DNA of 64,000 bases from Telmatobacter sp. DSM 110680. Its GTDB lineage: Bacteria > Acidobacteriota > Terriglobia > Terriglobales > Acidobacteriaceae. A program made the translations under genes and the position numbers. This document shows positions 14,726-22,750 of the stretch, piece after piece. Location of the stretch: positions 4,650,001 to 4,714,000 of the forward strand of contig NZ_CP121196.1 of NCBI RefSeq assembly GCF_039994875.1. Direction: 5' to 3'. Numbering within the stretch: position 1 is the first letter of the stretch; each line of letters starts with the position of its first letter. The notes beneath the pieces were generated by a model. The model made no database searches. It had not been told where the DNA came from and saw only the letters and a list, made by a program, of their open reading frames with translations.

Positions 14726-15730
14726 ATGGCAGTTAAGGTTGGCATCAACGGCTTCGGCCGAATTGGCCGCAACGTTTTGCGCGCCGCCCTGGGCAATCCC
14801 GAGATCGATTTTGTTGCCGTTAACGACTTGACCAGCCCGGCAACTCTCGCCCATCTGCTCAAGTACGACTCGGTTCTCGGAAATCTGAAGAACGACGTCA
14901 CCTCAGGGGACGACTTCATTTCAGTCGACGGCAAGAAGATCAAGGTCTGGGCCGAGCGCGACCCCGCCAAGCTGCCCTGGGCAGATGTAGGCGCACAGAT
15001 CGTCATCGAATCTACCGGCCACTTCACCGACGCCACCAAAGCCAAGGCGCACCTGGGCACGACCGTCAAGAAAGTCATCATCTCCGCTCCCGCGACCAAC
15101 GAAGACATCACCCTTGTTCTCGGCGTCAACGAAGACAAGTACGACGCGGCCAAGCACAACGTGATCTCCAATGCCAGCTGCACCACCAACTGCCTGGCAC
15201 CGGTTGTCAAGGTTCTGATCGCTCACTGTGGCATCGTCAGCGGCATCATGACCACGATTCACAGCTACACCAACGACCAGGTCATCCTCGACTTCCCGCA
15301 CAAGGACCTGCGTCGTGCCCGTGCTGCAGCCCTGAGCATGATTCCCAGCTCGACCGGCGCCGCCAAGGCTCTCAAGCTGGTTATCCCGGAAACCTCGGGT
15401 AAGCTCGACGGCTTCTCCCTGCGCGTCCCGACCCCTAACGTCTCCATCGTTGATCTCACCTTCATCAGCGAGAAAACGACCGACGTCAAGGCTGTTAACG
15501 CCGCTTTGAAGGCAGCCAGCGAAGGCGAACTCAAGGGCATTCTTGGTTATGACGAGAACCAGTTGGTCAGCTCCGACTTCAAGGGCAACCCGCTGTCTTC
15601 CATCGTCGACGCTCCGTTGACCAAGGTCATCGGCAACAGCGTCAAGGTGCTGAGCTGGTACGACAACGAGTGGGGTTATTCCAACCGCGTAGTTGACCTC
15701 GTCGGTTTCCTGGTTAAAAAGGGCCTCTAA
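14726..15730 (+). CDS. gapA: Glyceraldehyde-3-phosphate dehydrogenase
   Basis: This enzyme makes 1,3-bisphosphoglycerate with NAD+ and phosphate in glycolysis. The 334-residue product has the NAD motif NGFGRIGRNV, the catalytic cysteine in SNASCTTNCLAP and the C-terminal WYDNEWGYSNRV motif. AAGGAG at 14712-14717 gives 8-nt spacing to the ATG. Codon choice is richer in C-ending codons than in the surrounding small genes, as expected for high expression. It is followed by ridA and pgk in the same direction, a probable glycolytic operon. Confidence 0.97.
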   Translation: MAVKVGINGFGRIGRNVLRAALGNPEIDFVAVNDLTSPATLAHLLKYDSVLGNLKNDVTSGDDFISVDGKKIKVWAERDPAKLPWADVGAQIVIESTGHFTDATKAKAHLGTTVKKVIISAPATNEDITLVLGVNEDKYDAAKHNVISNASCTTNCLAPVVKVLIAHCGIVSGIMTTIHSYTNDQVILDFPHKDLRRARAAALSMIPSSTGAAKALKLVIPETSGKLDGFSLRVPTPNVSIVDLTFISEKTTDVKAVNAALKAASEGELKGILGYDENQLVSSDFKGNPLSSIVDAPLTKVIGNSVKVLSWYDNEWGYSNRVVDLVGFLVKKGL

Positions 15731-15816: not shown

Positions 15817-16221
15817 ATGCGAAAAAACATCAGCGGCGGATCCCCCTTCGAGCCCATCATCGGGTTCTCGCGTGCTGTTCGTGTTGGAAATACCGTTCAT
15901 GTAGCCGGAACCGGGCCTGTCGGCGCAGATAACGAAGACGCCGCAGGACAGACGCGGCGCATCTTCGCCATCGCTGAAAAGGCTCTCAATGAAGCCGGCG
16001 CGTCCTTTGATGATGTCGTCCGCACCCGCATGTATCTCACCCACGTAGAAGACTGGGAAGCTGTGGGACGCGTCCACGGCGAGTTCTTCGGCAACATCCG
16101 ACCTGCCGCCACCATGCTCGTGGTCGCCGCCTTGCTCAACCCGAACTGGCGCGTAGAAATCGAAATGGACGCTGTGATATCCGATCCGAGTGAATTCAGC
16201 TTTTCAGAACAGCGGAGCTGA
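15817..16221 (+). CDS. RidA-family (YjgF/UK114) deaminase
   Basis: RidA proteins hydrolyse reactive enamines/imines such as 2-aminoacrylate, which otherwise damages PLP enzymes including those of branched-chain amino acid synthesis. The 134-residue product has the RidA core: GFSRAVRVGNTVHVAGTGP near the N-terminus, the ligand arginine in VVRTRMYLT, and a conserved C-terminal segment RPAATMLVVAALLNPNWRVEIE. It lies between gapA and pgk. There is no Shine-Dalgarno; the ATG sits at the foot of a 12-bp heptad stem, so its translation may be structurally controlled or coupled. Confidence 0.9.
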   Translation: MRKNISGGSPFEPIIGFSRAVRVGNTVHVAGTGPVGADNEDAAGQTRRIFAIAEKALNEAGASFDDVVRTRMYLTHVEDWEAVGRVHGEFFGNIRPAATMLVVAALLNPNWRVEIEMDAVISDPSEFSFSEQRS

Positions 16222-16311: not shown

Positions 16312-17529
16312 ATGGCCAAGCTCTCCATCCGCGACATCGAACTCAAAAATAAGCGCGTCTTCATCCGCGTCGACTTCAACGTGCCGCTCTCTGAAGATGG
16401 GTCGACCATCACCGACGACACCCGCATTGTGGCCACGCTGCCCACGATTGAATACGCGCTGCGCCGTCACGCCAAGGTCATTCTCGCTTCCCATCTTGGC
16501 CGCCCCAAGGGCAAGCCGAATCCGAAATACTCGCTGCGACCCATTGTTGACCGCCTTCGCGAACTCCTCGACAAGCAGATCGGCGAATCGATCAATGTAG
16601 CCTTTGCGCCCGATTGCGTAGGCGAGATCGCCGAAGAGATGGCACGTCAGCTTGAGTCGCGCCAGGTGTTGCTACTGGAAAACCTGCGCTTCCACGCGGA
16701 AGAAGAGGCGAACGATCCGGCCTTTTCCAAGGCGCTGGCTTCGCTGGCGGAGGTCTACTGCAACGACGCGTTTGGCTCGGCGCACCGCGCTCACGCGTCG
16801 ACAGAAGGCATTACGCATTTCCTCAAGCCTGCTGTGGCCGGTCTGTTGATGGAGAAGGAGATCACCTATCTCGGCAAGGCGCTCGAGGCACCTGAGAAGC
16901 CATTCGTCGCGATCATTGGCGGTTCGAAGATCTCCGGCAAGATCGACGTCATCGACAACCTCCTCGACAAGGTCGACACCCTCGTCATCGTTGGCGGCAT
17001 GGCCTACACATTCCAGCGCGCGCTCGGCGTGACCACGGGCAAATCGCTGGTCGAAGAAGACAAGATCGATATGGCCAAGGCTGCGCTCGAAAAAGCGAAG
17101 GCCAAAGGCGTCAACCTGTTGCTGCCGGTCGACAATATCCTTGCCGACAGCTTCACGCCCGACGCCAAGACGCAGCCGTGGGATACCTCGAAGGACTTCC
17201 CTGCCGACTGGCAAGGACTCGATATCGGACCGAAGTCTGTCGCTGCGATTGAGGAGGTCGTCTCGACCGCCCGCACCATCGTTTGGAACGGCCCCGCAGG
17301 CGTCTTCGAGTTTCCGCGCTTTGCGGTGGGTACCAACGCCATTGCCAAGGCAGTGGCGATGAACAAGGCTGCCATCTCCATCATCGGCGGCGGCGATTCG
17401 GTCTCGGCCATCAACAAGGCCGGCTATGCCGACCAGGTGACGCATATCTCCACCGGCGGCGGCGCCAGCCTGGAATTCCTTGAGGGCAAGAAGCTGCCCG
17501 GCGTGGAAGCGCTGACAGACAAGAAATAG
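16312..17529 (+). CDS. pgk: Phosphoglycerate kinase
   Basis: Pgk transfers phosphate from 1,3-bisphosphoglycerate to ADP. The 405-residue product starts with the [12 protein letters not shown] signature and has the substrate arginine regions ([17 protein letters not shown]), the hinge [17 protein letters not shown] and the C-terminal nucleotide loop [11 protein letters not shown] with the terminal [20 protein letters not shown] at 16300-16305 precedes the ATG. It lies downstream of gapA and ridA; the next glycolytic gene, tpiA, is displaced by 4.4 kb of accessory genes. Confidence 0.97.
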
Positions 17530-17545
17530 TCTGATGTACCAAGCA

Positions 17546-17570
17546 CCCAGGTCTCAAAGTGAGACCTGGG
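17546..17570 (+). repeat. Perfect 10-bp hairpin after pgk
   Basis: CCCAGGTCTC (17546-17555) and GAGACCTGGG (17561-17570) are perfectly complementary around the loop AAAGT. No T-tract follows, so this is either a weak terminator or a REP-like unit. A related hairpin stands after tpiA (22725-22750). Confidence 0.75.
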
Positions 17571-17607
17571 GCCCCCAATTCTATTTGCGAATTGCACGAA
17601 AGACCGC

Positions 17608-17934
17608 GTGATCTATTCTGTTCCTCTCGGAGTCGCCTGCCTGTTGACCATCTGGTTTTGCTATTGGCTAACCAGCGTTTTTCGTTCCCTGTCAAATCCC
17701 TCCTGCAGAGTTGCCATCTTTGTCTTTCCAGTTCTCTCAGCAGCCGTTCTTATACTTTTTCCGGATCTTGGTCTTGAAGCAATTGGTAACTTCTTCCAGA
17801 GCCTGTCCTTGCCCGGCGGCAGGCAGATTCCGGCACTCACTACCGCGCTGACTATTCTGCTGGTTGCTCCCACTCTTCTGATAACCACGCTCGTCGCGCA
17901 GTTAAATATCGGAAAGCCTGCGAAATCAAGGTAG
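17608..17934 (+). CDS. Small three-helix membrane protein, weakly supported
   Basis: The frame encodes 108 residues with hydrophobic segments at about 3-24, 36-56 and 79-100 and no polar catalytic motif. The start is a GTG at 17608 without a convincing ribosome site. It begins the accessory stretch after pgk. It could be a genuine small gene or a chance open frame; the clear membrane-protein pattern is the only support. Confidence 0.4.
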
Positions 17935-18005
17935 GAGAGCTGCGAGCGCAATTCAAACTCTCATTGTTGATGTGCCCTCCTCGCCCGTGGTCCCGTTACA
18001 GGAGT

Positions 18006-18025
18006 CATAATTCTTAGCCGGAACA
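18006..18025 (+). promoter_or_regulatory. ATAATTCTTAGC motif, copy 1
   Basis: ATAATTCTTAGC followed by a G/C-GGAACA sequence occurs here, about 160 nt before the small gene at 18167. The same string recurs at 18546 before the next small gene. It could be part of a promoter (ATAAT as -10), a processing site or a repeat edge. The role is unknown. Confidence 0.35.
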
Positions 18026-18166
18026 TTGGTAGCTGAGGTATCAGTTATTGCACTCTGTTCGTGTGTTCTGGCGCACTGAAAGTGGGTCGTTGCTGCGCTA
18101 AAGTTCCACGCTGGGAAGGGATGCCAATGCGGAACGTGCAAGTGGCGTTCCCTTGAAGGTCGATCC

Positions 18167-18421
18167 ATGAGACATCGGATCGTGCTCCTTTTTGCCGCCA
18201 CATTCATTATCGGGATATCCGTAGGTGCGTGGCTCTTTGTGAGTGGACCTCTTGCCGACCAATTTCAATCACGCGCAGAATCGAACTTTGGCATGCTTGC
18301 GATCATGATCGTTTGCATATCGATCTTGCTCGGTGTACTGGTTAGCGTGTGGGACTCGAAAGAGGAAGTTGTTCCGCAAAAGCATCGGCATATCGCCTTC
18401 AGAAGGTTGTTGCATCACTGA
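18167..18421 (+). CDS. Small two-helix membrane protein (A of a pair)
   Basis: The 84-residue protein has an N-terminal helix (about 5-27), a short extracytoplasmic-type loop, a second helix (about 41-62) and a basic tail (HRHIAFRRLLHH). GAAGG upstream is a weak ribosome site. The first codons resemble those of the gene at 18617 (ATG-A-x-x-C-x-TCGGATC), and both are preceded by an ATAATTCTTAGC motif, so they may be diverged paralogues. The function is unknown. Confidence 0.5.
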   Translation: MRHRIVLLFAATFIIGISVGAWLFVSGPLADQFQSRAESNFGMLAIMIVCISILLGVLVSVWDSKEEVVPQKHRHIAFRRLLHH

Positions 18422-18545
18422 AAAAAGGGCGATCCTTTAGTTCCCTGTCTGGACGCAGGAAATGTGTGCCGCTTTTGTGTTTTTTGATTTGTGAGATGAA
18501 ACTGTTCCGGTATCCGGCCCCTTGCCCTCCCCTTCCGTCAGGCTG

Positions 18546-18563
18546 ATAATTCTTAGCGGAACA
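18546..18563 (+). promoter_or_regulatory. ATAATTCTTAGC motif, copy 2
   Basis: This is the second copy of the ATAATTCTTAGC/GGAACA string, about 70 nt before the small gene at 18617. The sequences flanking the two copies are otherwise different, apart from C-rich stretches just upstream. Confidence 0.35.
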
Positions 18564-18576
18564 GAGATGTTGATGC

Positions 18577-18604
18577 GAGATGTGCCGCAAGCGGCATCTC
18601 TTTT
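18577..18604 (+). terminator. Hairpin with T-tract between two small genes
   Basis: GAGAT-GT-GCCGC (18577-18588) pairs with GCGGC-ATCTC (18591-18600) with a two-base bulge, and TTTT follows from 18601. It could end transcription from the upstream small gene or act as a leader attenuator for the gene at 18617, which starts 13 nt after the T-tract. Confidence 0.5.
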
Positions 18605-18616
18605 CGGGGTAACTCG

Positions 18617-18895
18617 ATGAAGCGTCGGATCTTGATTGCGATCGGTTCCGCACTGCTTATCATGGGTGGCGTCGGGGTGGTGGCTTCACTGGCGTGGCTT
18701 ACAGCAGACAAGATAAACGGCTCCCTTTCGGCCATGCTTGACCCGCACATGGAAACTCTTATCTATGTGTTGCCAACGCTGATGCTTGTGATCGCGATGG
18801 CGGGGGCTGGATTTCTGGCCAGCGCGCTTTCAACTCCGCCGGGTGCGGCGCGCATCCCGCACCACCTGCGTCCGCATACGCATTTTCACGCGTGA
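18617..18895 (+). CDS. Small two-helix membrane protein (B of a pair)
   Basis: The 92-residue protein has an N-terminal helix (about 5-29), a loop of about 20 residues, a second helix (about 47-70) and a His/Pro-rich tail (RIPHHLRPHTHFHA) that might bind metal. The ribosome site is weak (GGGG at 18606-18609). It has the same arrangement and similar first codons as the gene at 18167. The function is unknown. Confidence 0.45.
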   Translation: MKRRILIAIGSALLIMGGVGVVASLAWLTADKINGSLSAMLDPHMETLIYVLPTLMLVIAMAGAGFLASALSTPPGAARIPHHLRPHTHFHA

Positions 18896-19205
18896 CGGGC
18901 GGTTTAGATGCGGCAGGCGGTGTGTGAATCCCTGTCTGCCCGTTAGCGAGCGTCCTGCTTTGCGTTCCCCATCTCTGTTTTCTGCAGCCGGACAATAATC
19001 CAACCGCGGTGCCAGCTTCGAGTTATTCAGGGAACCAGCGCGGTCTGCCTGACAAAAACCAACTTCATCGAACCTCCCTCATTTCAGAAAATTGTGGACG
19101 AGTTTTCTAACAGCGAGCATAGTTTATAGAACCTAATGTTAAATTTACTTGACATAATGTTTGCTATTTTTTACTATTGCTGCAAGTTGATTCGGGAGGA
19201 TCAAG
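18896..19205 (+). other. Intergenic stretch with promoter at its end
   Basis: No credible gene is seen. The last 80 bases are markedly AT-rich and hold the promoter and direct repeats listed separately; the first 200 bases show nothing recognisable. Confidence 0.6.
19149..19177 (+). promoter_or_regulatory. Sigma70-type promoter with possible operator
   Basis: TTGACA (19149-19154) and TACTAT (19172-19177) are separated by exactly 17 nt, the best promoter match in the window. TAATGTT occurs at 19135-19141 and again at 19156-19162, 21 bp apart (two helical turns), flanking the -35 box; TAAATTTA between them is palindromic. This is a plausible operator for the downstream XRE regulator. Confidence 0.7.
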
Positions 19206-19631
19206 ATGCCGTATCGAGAAAAGACAGCCTGGTTGTCGCTCTTCGCGATGATCGTCACGTTTGGCCCATACTTTGTCTATGTCGCGATGGACTCGCACCC
19301 GCCCAGGCCGTTGCCTGATCTCCACGAACTGAGCTACTACGCGGCGATCACCATCGCGGAGCTGATCATTTTGGGCGTCGGACACCTTGTGTTCCGGCTC
19401 AAGTCGCCTGACGAAGCGCGCACCCCGCTCGACGAAAGGGATGAAGCTATCAAGCGCCGCTCGCTCAGTTCCGCATATTACGTTCTGATCTTCGGCATGA
19501 TCCAGGTGGGATGCATCATGCCCTTTATGTCCAAGGGGTGGACGCTTGTTCACGCTTCGATCTTCATGATCGTTGTCGCGGAAATTACCCGCTTAAGCGT
19601 TACCGTAATCAGCTATCGCAGGCAGGCGTGA
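19206..19631 (+). CDS. Membrane protein paired with an XRE regulator
   Basis: The 141-residue protein has four likely membrane helices (about 8-28, 42-62, 85-105 and 111-131) and a soluble loop with RTPLDERDEAIKRRS, a motif typical of DUF2178-like membrane proteins that sit beside a small helix-turn-helix gene. GGGAGGA (19194-19200) lies 5 nt before the ATG. The stop overlaps the next start by one base (TGATG). The exact function of such pairs is not established. Confidence 0.75.
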   Translation: MPYREKTAWLSLFAMIVTFGPYFVYVAMDSHPPRPLPDLHELSYYAAITIAELIILGVGHLVFRLKSPDEARTPLDERDEAIKRRSLSSAYYVLIFGMIQVGCIMPFMSKGWTLVHASIFMIVVAEITRLSVTVISYRRQA

Positions 19632-19852
19632 TGGAAGGGAAAATCTCCAACCGAATTCGCGTACTGCGTTTCCACAACGGCGAAATGTCGCAAGCCGATC
19701 TTGGTCAACGCATTGGTGTAACCAGGCAGACAATCGCCGCAATCGAAGCTGGAAAATACTCGCCGTCTCTGGAGGCCGCGTTCCGGATAGCCAATGTTTT
19801 TAAAGTTCCCCTTGGAGAAGTATTCCAATGGGACGAGAACGCTGCCGGGTAA
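19631..19852 (+). CDS. XRE-family transcriptional regulator (minimal HTH)
   Basis: The 73-residue protein is essentially one helix-turn-helix domain: NRIRVLR, then MSQADLGQRIGVTRQTIAAIEAGKYSPS, then a VFKVPLGEVFQW end, typical of the YozG/Cro-C1 small regulator class. It is translationally coupled to the membrane protein before it. It may autoregulate the cassette through the direct repeats at the 19149 promoter; this is an inference from position. Confidence 0.85.
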   Translation: MEGKISNRIRVLRFHNGEMSQADLGQRIGVTRQTIAAIEAGKYSPSLEAAFRIANVFKVPLGEVFQWDENAAG

Positions 19853-19928
19853 TTGCTGAATCCTGTTCAAGGTCGGGCTACCACCTCGCCATCGTGTGAA
19901 GCGGCTCGAAGGCGTGCATCCGGTCGCT

Positions 19929-21050
19929 CTATTCGTCCGGATCGGATGCGCTTGACATCTCTCCGATGATGAATTTTGCCCTGCTTAGCAACTCGTCGTA
20001 AGTCACTATCTCGGTGTTCTTAAGCTGCCCCCTGAAGATCTCAAAGCAATTCCGCTTCACCAACGAATCGAGTTCGCTGGTGCATCCAAAGATGAGTAGC
20101 GAGCGTGGATGGACTGTGTGAATATGCTCGGGCTCAAGCCGCTCCCTATTCCCTTCCGTCTGACTTCCTTCGATTTCCCAGGTGCGAGCGTTCACTTGGA
20201 CTTGAGACAGCGCATTCGCGAACTCGACATCGAATCCGGGAACGCCGTTTCGATACTTTTGTCCTCTTAGATTCGCTTGAAATATTGGAGAGTTAGGCCG
20301 CTTGATTTCAACGAGTACGACGAATTTTTCATGGCCCACAGTGTGATGGAGGTAGTCGCCTTTTTGGCCACCCCGACCAGTGAGATCTTTTCCACCATAT
20401 AGCGGTTGTCCCTGAATCTGATTTAAGAACTGGTAACGGAGTCCGAGCCCAAAAATCCATCTATTGTCATCAAAGAATTCTCCCCACCTAGATTCATCCC
20501 AATTCATCGTGCGCATTGCTTCTTCGAATTCTCTGACAGAAGCGGTGCGCCGCCGCAGAATCTGGCCGTCGGCGAATCTTTCCGCCTCCTCCGGTTTCAG
20601 AGCAGCCAACTGAGCCCAAAAATCACCACCGTAGCCCTTATTGATCAAGCTCTCGATAGTGGGCTTCAGATCTTCATCGTTGATTTCAATCACACTTTTT
20701 TGCGGTGCAACGCTGACCTTCTCAGAACGTTCTTTGAGTGAGGGAAGGTCGGCCATCTTAAGCAAGATACCAATGCCGTTAAGAAATTTATTCATCGCGT
20801 CGGTATCTAACTCGAAGCTGATCGCTTGCCCAGCCTGCACTCCTCGAAGCGAAAGGCCATCTCCATCTTCCCAGCCCACAGACCCCTTCTTTTGGTAGAC
20901 AAATTTGCCGCGTAGGTGCACGTTTCCCTGGGAATCCTTTGAAAAAGAGGGCAAGAAGAGCCGACGAGTCCTCGTTGTGGTCTCAAGCTTGATCGGATTG
21001 TCGCATCCAATGAAGCTGTCTGTTATGGGATAGGTGCGAATTTCCGTCAT
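19929..21050 (-). CDS. Shedu anti-phage protein SduA (DUF4263 nuclease)
   Basis: Shedu is a single-gene defence system whose DUF4263 domain is a PD-(D/E)xK nuclease. In this 373-residue protein the C-terminal half has WGEFFDDNRWIFG (about 189-201), an Asp in GDYLHH (about 232), LVEIKRP with the E-x-K pair (about 248/250), a Gln in ALSQVQ (about 283) and a final PRSLLIFGC ... EIVTYDELLSRAK segment. The N-terminal about 170 residues are a variable sensor-type region. The ATG at 21050 has GGAAGGTGG upstream; the longer frame to 21092 lacks a site. Its base composition is more AT-rich than the neighbouring glycolytic genes. It stands alone between two plus-strand genes. Confidence 0.85.
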   Translation of the reverse strand: MTEIRTYPITDSFIGCDNPIKLETTTRTRRLFLPSFSKDSQGNVHLRGKFVYQKKGSVGWEDGDGLSLRGVQAGQAISFELDTDAMNKFLNGIGILLKMADLPSLKERSEKVSVAPQKSVIEINDEDLKPTIESLINKGYGGDFWAQLAALKPEEAERFADGQILRRRTASVREFEEAMRTMNWDESRWGEFFDDNRWIFGLGLRYQFLNQIQGQPLYGGKDLTGRGGQKGDYLHHTVGHEKFVVLVEIKRPNSPIFQANLRGQKYRNGVPGFDVEFANALSQVQVNARTWEIEGSQTEGNRERLEPEHIHTVHPRSLLIFGCTSELDSLVKRNCFEIFRGQLKNTEIVTYDELLSRAKFIIGEMSSASDPDE

Positions 21051-21149
21051 TCTTGCCACCTTCCAAATTGGAGCGATGATCATCCCGTCCACAGCTAGCG
21101 GATCATCCTATGCCAACAATCATCTACAGCACGCAGAATATCCCATCGA

Positions 21150-21830
21150 ATGCGACAATTAAACTCAAATGCAGCGCAGCTTATCGCTCTCTGTGGGGGA
21201 AAAGTGCCTTATTACACGCGAGTCCTTTCCAAAGATGCGGAGTTCCCTGCCTTCGACGAACTCGCGGAGTTCATTCGGAGCGGCCATCCTGACTACAAGC
21301 TGACGGTTGAAGAAGGCACGGAAGAAGAGTGGGAATCTCTGCTGCTGTCCAGCAACGACGAGGTCGAAGTTGCCGTGCTCGAACGCAATCCTGTGTCGGA
21401 TGGTTCGGTAGGACAGGACGAGGTCGCCGAGTTCATTGAAGAGACCGCGGAATGCAAGCCCGAGACCGGAGTTGCGTGGCTGCATGAGTTTCTGTCGGAG
21501 GTGAAGACCGTGTACGCCTTCCAGCATCTGCAGGGGTCAGAAACCGAAGACGGCGGGAACGCGCTTCATGCGCTGCGTTCGCACCTGTGGGAGCGGGGAG
21601 ATGCGATCCTGCAGGCCGACAACGAAGGATTCACCAACGAAGAGGGCTTTCATATCGTCTGGCAATTCTCTGATTCGGTTTCAGGCCCATGGAATATGGG
21701 CGTGCTGCAGGACGGCACCTGGCACCACTTCAAGATGGATCTCGGCGACCCGGACCATCGCGAAGCTTTCCTGAACGGAGATATGCCTGGGGATTTGTCC
21801 GCGATTCGGCAGTCGGAGCCGTCACGATAA
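21150..21830 (+). CDS. Hypothetical acidic protein
   Basis: The 226-residue product is rich in Glu/Asp, has no signal peptide or membrane helix and matches no family I recognise. The middle (about 80-140) is a likely helical region (GQDEVAEFIEETAE, GVAWLHEFLSEVKTVYAFQ). The C-terminal third (EEGFHIVWQFSD ... GTWHHFKMDLGDP) looks like a beta-rich fold. The ribosome site is poor. It lies divergently beside the Shedu gene, with overlap-free spacing of 99 nt, and upstream of tpiA. Confidence 0.65.
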   Translation: MRQLNSNAAQLIALCGGKVPYYTRVLSKDAEFPAFDELAEFIRSGHPDYKLTVEEGTEEEWESLLLSSNDEVEVAVLERNPVSDGSVGQDEVAEFIEETAECKPETGVAWLHEFLSEVKTVYAFQHLQGSETEDGGNALHALRSHLWERGDAILQADNEGFTNEEGFHIVWQFSDSVSGPWNMGVLQDGTWHHFKMDLGDPDHREAFLNGDMPGDLSAIRQSEPSR

Positions 21831-21933
21831 CGGCTAAATTCTGCGGCGACTTTTGTGTCCTTATCGCAATGTGCGTGCCGTCACCCGGCGAGACGAATCC
21901 ATACCCTAAAATTGAGTTGAGGAAACCTGCATA

Positions 21934-22686
21934 ATGGCCCGTAAGAAACTGATTGCTGCCAATTGGAAGATGTACAAGACGCCGGCTGAAGCCAAGGCGT
22001 TTGTCGATGCATTTTTGCCGCTCGTCGCTGGACACACGCGCGATGAAATCGCCCTTTTCCCGTCGCCGGTTCTGCTGCCCACGGTGATTGCAGCCGCCAA
22101 GGACTCCAACGTTGCGGTCGGCTGCCAGAATATCCACTTTGCCGAAGAAGGCGCTTACACTGGCGAGACTTCCGTCGGCCAGTTGATCGCGGTGGGTGGA
22201 ACGCATACGCTGATCGGACACTCCGAACGGAGGCAGTATTTTGCGGAGACCGACGAGATCGTGAACAAGAAGCTGCATACGGCGCTCAAGCACGGCATCG
22301 TACCCATCGTCTGCGTAGGAGAAGTCCTGGCGGAGCGCGAAGCCGGCAAAACTGAATCCGTGCTCAAGACGCAAGTCACAGGCGCGTTCGCAAACATCAC
22401 CGCCGAAGCTGCTGCTCCAATCGTGATCGCATACGAGCCGGTGTGGGCAATCGGTACCGGCAAGACCGCAACGCCGGAGATGGCTGTCGAAGCGCATAAG
22501 ATCATTCGCGCTGAAGTTACCAAGCTGTTGGGCGCCGATGTGGCTGCGAAGATGCGGATCCTCTACGGCGGCAGCGTGAAGCCCGACAATGCAACGGCTC
22601 TCTGCGGTCAGGAAGAGATTGACGGCGCACTGGTTGGCGGCGCCAGCCTCAAGCCTGACTCGTTCACAGCAATCGTGAAGTACTAA
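21934..22686 (+). CDS. tpiA: Triosephosphate isomerase
   Basis: TpiA interconverts dihydroxyacetone phosphate and glyceraldehyde 3-phosphate. The 250-residue product has N-terminal AANWKMYKT (Asn/Lys of the active site), the catalytic His in LIGHSERRQYF, the catalytic Glu in AYEPVWAIGTGKTATPEMA (with loop 6) and the C-terminal phosphate loops LYGGSVKPDN and GALVGGASL. GAGGAAA lies 10 nt before the ATG. It completes the gapA-ridA-pgk set but is separated from it by the accessory segment. Confidence 0.97.
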   Translation: MARKKLIAANWKMYKTPAEAKAFVDAFLPLVAGHTRDEIALFPSPVLLPTVIAAAKDSNVAVGCQNIHFAEEGAYTGETSVGQLIAVGGTHTLIGHSERRQYFAETDEIVNKKLHTALKHGIVPIVCVGEVLAEREAGKTESVLKTQVTGAFANITAEAAAPIVIAYEPVWAIGTGKTATPEMAVEAHKIIRAEVTKLLGADVAAKMRILYGGSVKPDNATALCGQEEIDGALVGGASLKPDSFTAIVKY

Positions 22687-22724: not shown

Positions 22725-22750
22725 CCCGGGTCTCGTTCCTGAGATCCGGG
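22725..22750 (+). repeat. Hairpin after tpiA related to the post-pgk hairpin
   Basis: CCCGGGTCTC (22725-22734) pairs with GAGATCCGGG (22741-22750) with one G:T pair, around a 6-nt loop. Like the element after pgk, it is preceded by a G-T/C-rich GC(A/G)CC context and shares GGTCTC/GAGA arms. No T-tract follows. Confidence 0.65.

Follow-up and report, generated by a model that had tools for sequence, protein, structure and literature searches.

The question raised by this locus is what kind of site lies between pgk and tpiA in the window, the 64-kb stretch of DNA analysed here, in which these two core genes stand 4.4 kb apart and are separated by genes for three small membrane proteins, a coupled membrane protein and XRE regulator, a Shedu nuclease and an acidic protein. 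In all likelihood, the space between the two core genes serves this acidobacterial genus as an accessory-gene hotspot, and the clearest cargo of the 3.67-kb insert of low G+C content that it holds in the present genome is the Shedu defence nuclease. The gene order given in the initial annotation, from gapA to tpiA, agrees with the list of open reading frames (ORFs), in which Shedu lies on the minus strand, and the features are as follows:

14726-15730: gapA
15817-16221: ridA
16312-17529, plus strand: pgk, left core flank (ORF; matched in 89 of 99 genomes)
17530-21200, no strand: 3.67-kb insert with low G+C content, from m1 through Shedu (base composition; gap comparison)
17546-17570, no strand: palindrome 3' of pgk, one copy of a REP-type repeat scattered through genomes of the genus
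17608-17934, plus strand: m1, small membrane protein of 108 aa (ORF; relative in G041)
18110-18158, plus strand: structured leader of m2
18167-18421, plus strand: m2, small membrane protein of 84 aa with a His-rich tail (ORF; relative in G011)
18556-18608, plus strand: structured leader of m3
18617-18895, plus strand: m3, small membrane protein of 92 aa, apparent paralogue of m2 (relatives)
19206-19631, plus strand: membrane protein of 141 aa, partner of the XRE gene (ORF)
19631-19852, plus strand: XRE-type regulator of 73 aa (HTH_3, E 1.1e-14; frame checked)
19929-21050, minus strand: predicted Shedu nuclease SduA, 373 aa (Pfam, PADLOC, PDB alignment)
21204-21830, plus strand: acidic protein of 208 aa, genus-level occupant of the gap (start set by homologues)
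21934-22686, plus strand: tpiA, right core flank (ORF; matched in 90 of 99 genomes)
22726-22749, no strand: palindrome 3' of tpiA, a diverged copy of the repeat with three mismatches to the pattern

The comparison of relatives supports this reading. Within the genus, the pgk-tpiA gap ranges from 33 to 4407 bp (median 1181) in the 34 of 59 genomes, own included, in which it is measurable, that is, in which pgk and tpiA are colinear on one contig, and the largest gap is that of the present genome. Outside the genus, it spans 2-872 bp (median 50.5) in the 28 of 40 genomes in which the genes are colinear, while the sole control gap, between gapA and pgk, measures 119-1047 bp across 39 loci of the genus. 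The occupants also differ from one genome to another, with unrelated gene families found at the same place. Complete toxin-antitoxin pairs are present in eight of the 29 gaps read and Shedu in two, the second copy being 74% identical to the first, and some gaps are nearly empty. The hotspot reading follows from this combination of variable gap size and different cargo at the same place, and the gap can be regarded as a landing site for accessory genes that belongs to a known type. No recurrence of this gap's gene set, with its order unchanged, was seen in distant genera.

The locus had initially been described as a defence or accessory insertion site, of which the accessory part holds, while its defence character rests on two Shedu genes. 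The commoner named cargo of the gap consists of toxin-antitoxin pairs, not of Shedu; most of the cargo of the other gaps carries no defence annotation, and six unassigned cargo proteins from these gaps found no match in PADLOC.

Base composition delimits the insert more closely. The region 17530-21200 has a G+C content of 51.8%. Overlapping stretches of the same length taken from the 64 kb, 1060 in number and none touching 17530-21200, average 57.6% (sd 0.9); none of the 1060 is as low as the insert, which bears out the earlier impression of a partly AT-rich segment. The acidic gene, at 57.5%, is similar to its surroundings. Within the genus it occurs in 22 of 59 genomes, counting the present one, and it is found in none of the 40 outside, and its start is assigned to the GTG at 21204, because its homologues begin there. 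By its distribution, the acidic gene is an older, genus-level occupant of the gap, and its membership in the insert is ruled out by its normal G+C content and its occurrence in relatives that have no match to the window Shedu. Within the 4.4-kb accessory segment of the initial annotation, the insert comprises m1 to Shedu, and the acidic gene lies outside it.

The same distribution bears on the idea that all the genes of the 4.4 kb, membrane proteins, XRE regulator and acidic protein included, act together with Shedu as a single multi-gene defence system. The genes are contiguous here, and Shedu and the acidic gene are divergent neighbours; however, of the 22 genomes that carry the acidic gene, 20 lack any match to the window Shedu, the gap of G025 contains Shedu and lacks matches to m1, m2, m3 and the membrane protein, and G008 and G001 have m3 and no Shedu match. 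Shedu is, in addition, known as a one-gene system, and a joint system of this kind is highly improbable.

The assignment of the nuclease draws on several comparisons. The Pfam domain SduA_C is found above its cut-off (E 9.6e-24), while SduA_N lies just under it (E 2.6e-5; 24.7 bits against a cut-off of 27), and PADLOC recovers SduA with an E-value of 2.5e-47. The Escherichia coli SduA structure 8ti8 aligns at E 2.8e-22 with the N-terminal domain included, although the N-terminal stretch taken separately aligns weakly (24 bits). The catalytic residues D232 and E248-I-K250, which we take to be the PD-(D/E)XK motif, are in register with 8ti8, and 8ti9 has A at the column of E248. From its sequence, the window gene is a member of the Shedu (SduA) family that has kept its catalytic residues, and is predicted to encode a nuclease. 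Its start is probably the Met at 21050, which gives 373 aa, because a stop codon stands directly 5' of this Met in the 74%-identical relative (G025). AlphaFold models built from two-sequence alignments were too poor for use, both for Shedu (pLDDT 33.9) and for the acidic protein (pLDDT 40.8).

The best model for its action is EcSduA (PDB 8ti8, 8ti9, 8tia), which it resembles in the alignment of both domains, in the register of D and E-x-K, and in length (373 against 382 aa), and from which it differs in its low overall identity and weak N-terminal match. EcSduA, labelled type I, is described as a homotetramer that works by itself, with DNA-end-dependent nicking and protection against phage (PMC12904381). 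By analogy with this work, a Shedu tetramer would use its N-terminal clamp to sense free ends on linear phage DNA that enters the cell, and this sensing would free the PD-(D/E)XK nuclease, which would then nick near the DNA end.

The window Shedu protein is matched in only four of the 99 genomes, own included, and its one close relative, in G025, lies in the same gap and in the same orientation; SduA_C genes in four other genomes of the genus are located on other contigs or far from the gap. The gene is intact and under purifying selection, the comparison of the two copies yielding a dN/dS of 0.049 with synonymous sites saturated (dS 3.2). A single-protein query of viral contigs, suited to close relatives only, found no relative. 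The plasmid records that match number 109, all below 60% identity, and one of them covers at least 80% of the query, while a pattern search of genome contigs returned 61 stretches, one of which encodes a relative and is the G025 contig itself.

How the cargo enters and leaves the gap may be approached from its flanks. No integrase-like family was found among the seven gap proteins scanned, and a tRNA-linked island is ruled out, as the 64-kb window contains no tRNA. The conserved flanks, pgk and tpiA, may instead allow cargo to be exchanged through homologous recombination, with no dedicated integrase. Given the saturated synonymous divergence between this genome and G025, recent exchange between them is not supported. 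Alternatively, Shedu might be an old, vertically inherited resident of the gap that has been lost many times, in which case the site would be slowly decaying instead of gaining genes repeatedly. The shared position and orientation of the two copies are consistent with this possibility, as is the divergence of Shedu and of the acidic gene (dS 2.3, also saturated), at least as great as that of the flanking genes (dS 0.8-1.2), and the gaps of G012 and G049 contain lone antitoxin-like pieces, which suggests that some of the gaps are decaying. The two Shedu carriers have no other insert DNA in common, however, and they are not sisters in the pgk+tpiA tree (26 genomes, support values not given), so several losses would be needed; the low G+C content of the insert and the unrelated gene families in the gaps of other genomes also stand against it. 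Vertical residence is viewed as a possible but rather doubtful account, and the hotspot reading is preferred.

The two related hairpins reported after pgk and after tpiA are both present, and each folds better than 199 of 200 shuffled sequences (z -3.05 for 17546-17570 and -2.99 for 22726-22749). As borders of the segment they fail, since the second is placed past tpiA and hence not in the segment, and since each is a member of a family found throughout the genome. This family occupies 27 places in the present genome and has 1140 copies in 58 relatives of the genus, against 87 for a backward control, and 42 against 48 in 39 genomes outside the genus. A strict copy lies within 900 bp of both Y1_Tnp genes of this genome and of four of the 40 sampled from relatives, and five of the six Y1_Tnp genes with a nearby palindrome fall in one clade of seven. 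The hairpins are REP-type repeats, a palindrome dispersed through the genus and associated with RAYT-type transposases.

An association with a Y1 transposase, together with the placing of one palindrome after each core gene, might suggest that the hairpins mark the mobile element that brought the segment in. Such a pair would nevertheless enclose tpiA as well, the family is dispersed, with a copy in only two of 28 gaps (both just 3' of pgk), and the insert holds no transposase, which makes this origin scarcely credible. The copies read GGGTGCCCCAGGTCTC...GAGACCTGGG, and because the GTAG/CGTC end tag is absent, the palindrome works like a REP yet falls outside both super-families named in PMC3733652. 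As in the REP/RAYT and TIRYT elements, Y1 transposase genes are found here between inverted copies of a dispersed palindrome, and acidobacterial TIRYTs are named in the same source, including Koribacter ORF1552 with its repeated TIR family; the difference is that the end beside the palindrome is GGGTGC here, rather than GTAG or CGTC (PMC3733652).

Among the remaining genes of the insert, m1 has a 33% identical relative encoded 3' of pgk in G041, m2 has a relative in the pgk-tpiA gap of G011, and m3 has relatives in the gaps of G008 (54% identical) and G001 (49%), with weaker ones outside the gap in G009 and G003. Of the 60 genomes searched, none besides the present one matches the 141-aa membrane protein, and the XRE gene, whose start at 19631 overlaps the stop of the membrane gene by one base, is coupled to it.

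A conserved structured leader, which has no Rfam match, precedes both m2 (18167) and m3 (18617), and consists of an outer stem, an internal loop with A opposite AG, and an inner UGC/GCA stem, just 5' of the ribosome-binding site. No known RNA family (Rfam) was found between 14 and 25 kb at E<=1, and in a scan for promoters and terminators, eight promoter-like sites were counted where 4.6 would be expected, and 10 terminator-like sites where 10.6 would be. The m3 leader is not widespread as DNA, being found in two of 60 genomes, own included. Across 41 + 93 loci (0.86 Mb), the only sequences to score strongly with the leader model R1 were the five from which it had been built, and the lesser matches were the reverse strand of one source sequence (E 0.0012), L076 (0.0018 and 0.89), L172 (0.034), L045 (0.17) and L054 (0.3). 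That m2 and m3 represent a new RNA-controlled accessory module living in the hotspot is an unlikely proposition; if true, the leader would keep a small, hydrophobic protein whose tail is rich in His off until needed, in the manner of a toxin or stress protein.

Shedu, the core-flanked hotspot and the REP-type repeats are all of known kinds. The closest parallel is found in the core defence hotspots cDHS1 and cDHS2 of Pseudomonas aeruginosa, as described in PMC10250203, which likewise hold variable accessory and defence content between fixed core genes, with a lower G+C content and often no mobile gene; in cDHS1, Shedu ranks with the systems found most often (PMC10250203). The pgk-tpiA gaps are far smaller than these hotspots, with their medians of 26 kb and 6 kb (PMC10250203), and in them toxin-antitoxin pairs outnumber defence systems, with a known defence gene in only two gaps. 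Among the 10 papers listed, out of 93, in a literature search on Acidobacteria and defence islands, none has a title that concerns this phylum. The present locus adds a small, cleanly delimited core-gene hotspot in the Acidobacteriota, and the genes of this genus that lie between pgk and tpiA without an assignment are candidates for a function in defence or as toxin-antitoxin systems.

The comparison of the pgk-tpiA interval across relatives, proposed in the initial annotation, revealed a variable gap, ranging from 33 to 4407 bp (median 1181) in the 34 of 59 genus genomes in which the two genes are colinear on one contig. The window has the largest gap in this group (4407 bp), while nine of the 34 gaps are shorter than 400 bp. 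Both genes were also found, not colinear on a single contig, in 13 genus genomes, 12 of which are multi-contig assemblies. Outside the genus, the genes are colinear in 28 of 40 genomes, where the gap measures 2-872 bp (median 50.5); a further nine carry both genes apart. The only control gap measured, gapA-pgk, spans 119-1047 bp in 39 genus loci. These counts are based on searches that matched pgk in 89 and tpiA in 90 of 99 genomes, own genome included. In the complete genome G055, tpiA is encoded on the strand opposite to pgk and approximately 11 kb upstream of it (C1:4732559-4733317 and 4744470-4745681), a local rearrangement, and the acidic gene is still found directly after pgk despite the displaced tpiA.

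The ORFs of 14-24 kb follow the order gapA, ridA, pgk, three small membrane protein genes (m1, m2, and m3), a membrane protein/XRE cassette, the Shedu nuclease gene, the acidic gene, tpiA, and an acyltransferase, and the remainder of the window reads as housekeeping, as judged by eye from the ORF list, with no tRNA in the 64 kb. The small XRE regulator (start refined to 19631) is coupled to the membrane protein gene that precedes it; Shedu is encoded on the minus strand between XRE and the acidic gene. Comparison placed the Shedu start at 21050 (373 aa), given that in the 74%-identical gene of the relative G025 the codon immediately before the corresponding Met is a stop, and the acidic gene start at GTG 21204, where its homologues begin. 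The segment is indeed more AT-rich in part, as first described: positions 17530-21200 have 51.8% G+C, lower than any of 1060 overlapping windows of this length taken from the parts of the 64 kb outside it (mean 57.6%, sd 0.9), and the Shedu gene has 50.0%. The acidic gene, at 57.5%, is similar to its surroundings, and the low-G+C insert thus stops short of it.

The Shedu protein has a strong SduA_C match, a weak SduA_N match, and a PADLOC SduA match (2.5e-47). The E. coli SduA structure 8ti8 matches both domains (2.8e-22), with the D and E-x-K residues aligned, while 8ti9 has A in the E column. The protein was matched in four of 99 genomes (own included), two of them distant, and SduA_C gave seven matches, six above the cut-off, in 80 genus genomes (own included). 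The SduA_C gene lies inside the pgk-tpiA gap in the window's genome and G025, and away from pgk in G003 and G055; among the others, G043 has no pgk match and G114 was outside the pgk search. The likeness between the window and G025 is limited to the Shedu gene (dN/dS = 0.049, with synonymous sites saturated), the rest of the insert DNA being unlike, and the two genomes do not group as sisters on the pgk+tpiA tree of 26 genomes, shown without support values. This shared gene may reflect transfer into the same site, or it may represent an old presence followed by losses.

A pgk match is present in 49 genus relatives; loci of 40 of these were retrieved, and ORFs were read in the 29 gaps for which tpiA was matched as well (the window plus 28 relatives). 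Ten chosen cargo proteins yielded, in Pfam, PIN_3 (two), PIN (one), RHH_6, PhdYefM antitoxin, EF-Tu domain 3, and a weak DUF4177 match below the cut-off, with no family for the other three; six cargo proteins, unassigned or PIN, had zero PADLOC matches. Recurrent modules were searched in 28 gaps with seeds drawn from these same gaps, which recovered Phd-PIN pairs in G004, G010, G018, G025, and G036, and RHH-PIN pairs in G030 (two), G036, and G044. The gap of G021, kept out of the module search by its partial tpiA but counted among the 29, also has an RHH-PIN pair, itself a seed. A complete pair is thus present in 8 of 29 gaps, and antitoxin-like pieces alone are left in G012 and G049. A gene in the G025 gap reads, from its own sequence, as glutaredoxin-like, and a 571-aa protein in the G007 gap presumably resembles alpha-L-fucosidase. 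Gap size, content, and low G+C bear out the initial annotation's view of an accessory, and probably defence, insertion site in a housekeeping locus.

The acidic gene occurs in 22 of 59 genus genomes (own included) and in none of the 40 outside the genus, with a patchy distribution on the 26-genome tree. Its protein could not be convincingly assigned to a family in Pfam (the best match, E 0.16, falls below the cut-off), PADLOC, or NCBIfam, and the structure model from two sequences is poor. In G030, two acidic gene and tpiA pairs lie on separate contigs (C44 and C168), the tpiA copies being 90% and 92% identical to that of the window, through either a duplication or a mixed bin.

The m2 and m3 genes look like paralogues, each with a structured leader:

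18110-18158, structured leader directly upstream of m2 (plus-strand gene)
18556-18608, structured leader directly upstream of m3 (plus-strand gene)

A common leader fold is possible in five family genes (window m2 and m3, G008, G001, and G011). In the alignment of these five sequences, with the structure derived from one of them, pairing is found in 91% of cells, with changes on both sides in 4 of 14 pairs; pairing falls to 29-55% when the partners are slid, and further pair types are no more numerous than in shuffles. Single-sequence folding z-scores are modest (+0.26 to -2.24). The leader has no Rfam match at E<=1, and the model built from the five leaders finds no match at two weaker m3 relatives located elsewhere, in G009 and G003.

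The two related hairpins had been read as bounding the segment, which does not hold. The pattern CCAGGTCTC-N6-GAGACCTGG, with up to two mismatches, occurs at 27 places in the window's genome (backward control, 0), and GGTCTC-N4-8-GAGACC has 1140 copies vs. 87 for the control in 58 same-genus relatives, and 42 vs. 48 in 39 genomes outside the genus. A crude ORF caller gave a gene context for 36 of 38 hairpin sites: convergent genes surround 12 and tandem genes 10, another 14 fall inside a called ORF, and none lies between divergent genes. Two Y1_Tnp (RAYT-type) genes score above the cut-off in the own genome, each having a palindrome copy no more than 310 bp from the matched stretch, and one with copies on both sides in inverted orientation. 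In a sample of 42 Y1_Tnp genes (40 fetched from those listed for relatives, plus these two), a strict copy lies within 900 bp of six and is absent from 36; five of the six belong to one clade of seven, a further member of which, in G004, has a variant palindrome on its flanks. Given the dispersed copies, the Y1_Tnp association, and the presence of a GTCTC-type hairpin in just 2 of 28 pgk-tpiA gaps, the hairpins are REP-type repeats, not insert borders. Acidobacterial TIRYT genes, one having a repeated TIR family, have been published (PMC3733652, in its section 16), and the kind of the hairpin repeat is therefore known.

The palindrome GGGTGCCCCAGGTCTC...GAGACCTGGG is dispersed genus-wide, at 17546-17570 and 22726-22749, and also in the loci L118, L142, L162, and L166. 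Inverted copies of it stand on either side of the RAYT-type (Y1_Tnp) transposase genes of one clade, an arrangement that amounts to a REPtron-like element in Acidobacteriota.

According to PMC12904381, EcSduA is a homotetramer that binds DNA ends through an N-terminal clamp and cuts one strand at a set distance from the end. The window Shedu would act similarly, as a tetramer with an end-binding clamp and end-distance nicking. The cargo of the gap may turn over by recombination between conserved flanks, for which the core defence hotspots of P. aeruginosa (PMC10250203) and hotspots without mobile elements (PMC5635113) provide analogies. The pgk-tpiA gap is a further example of an already known kind of site.
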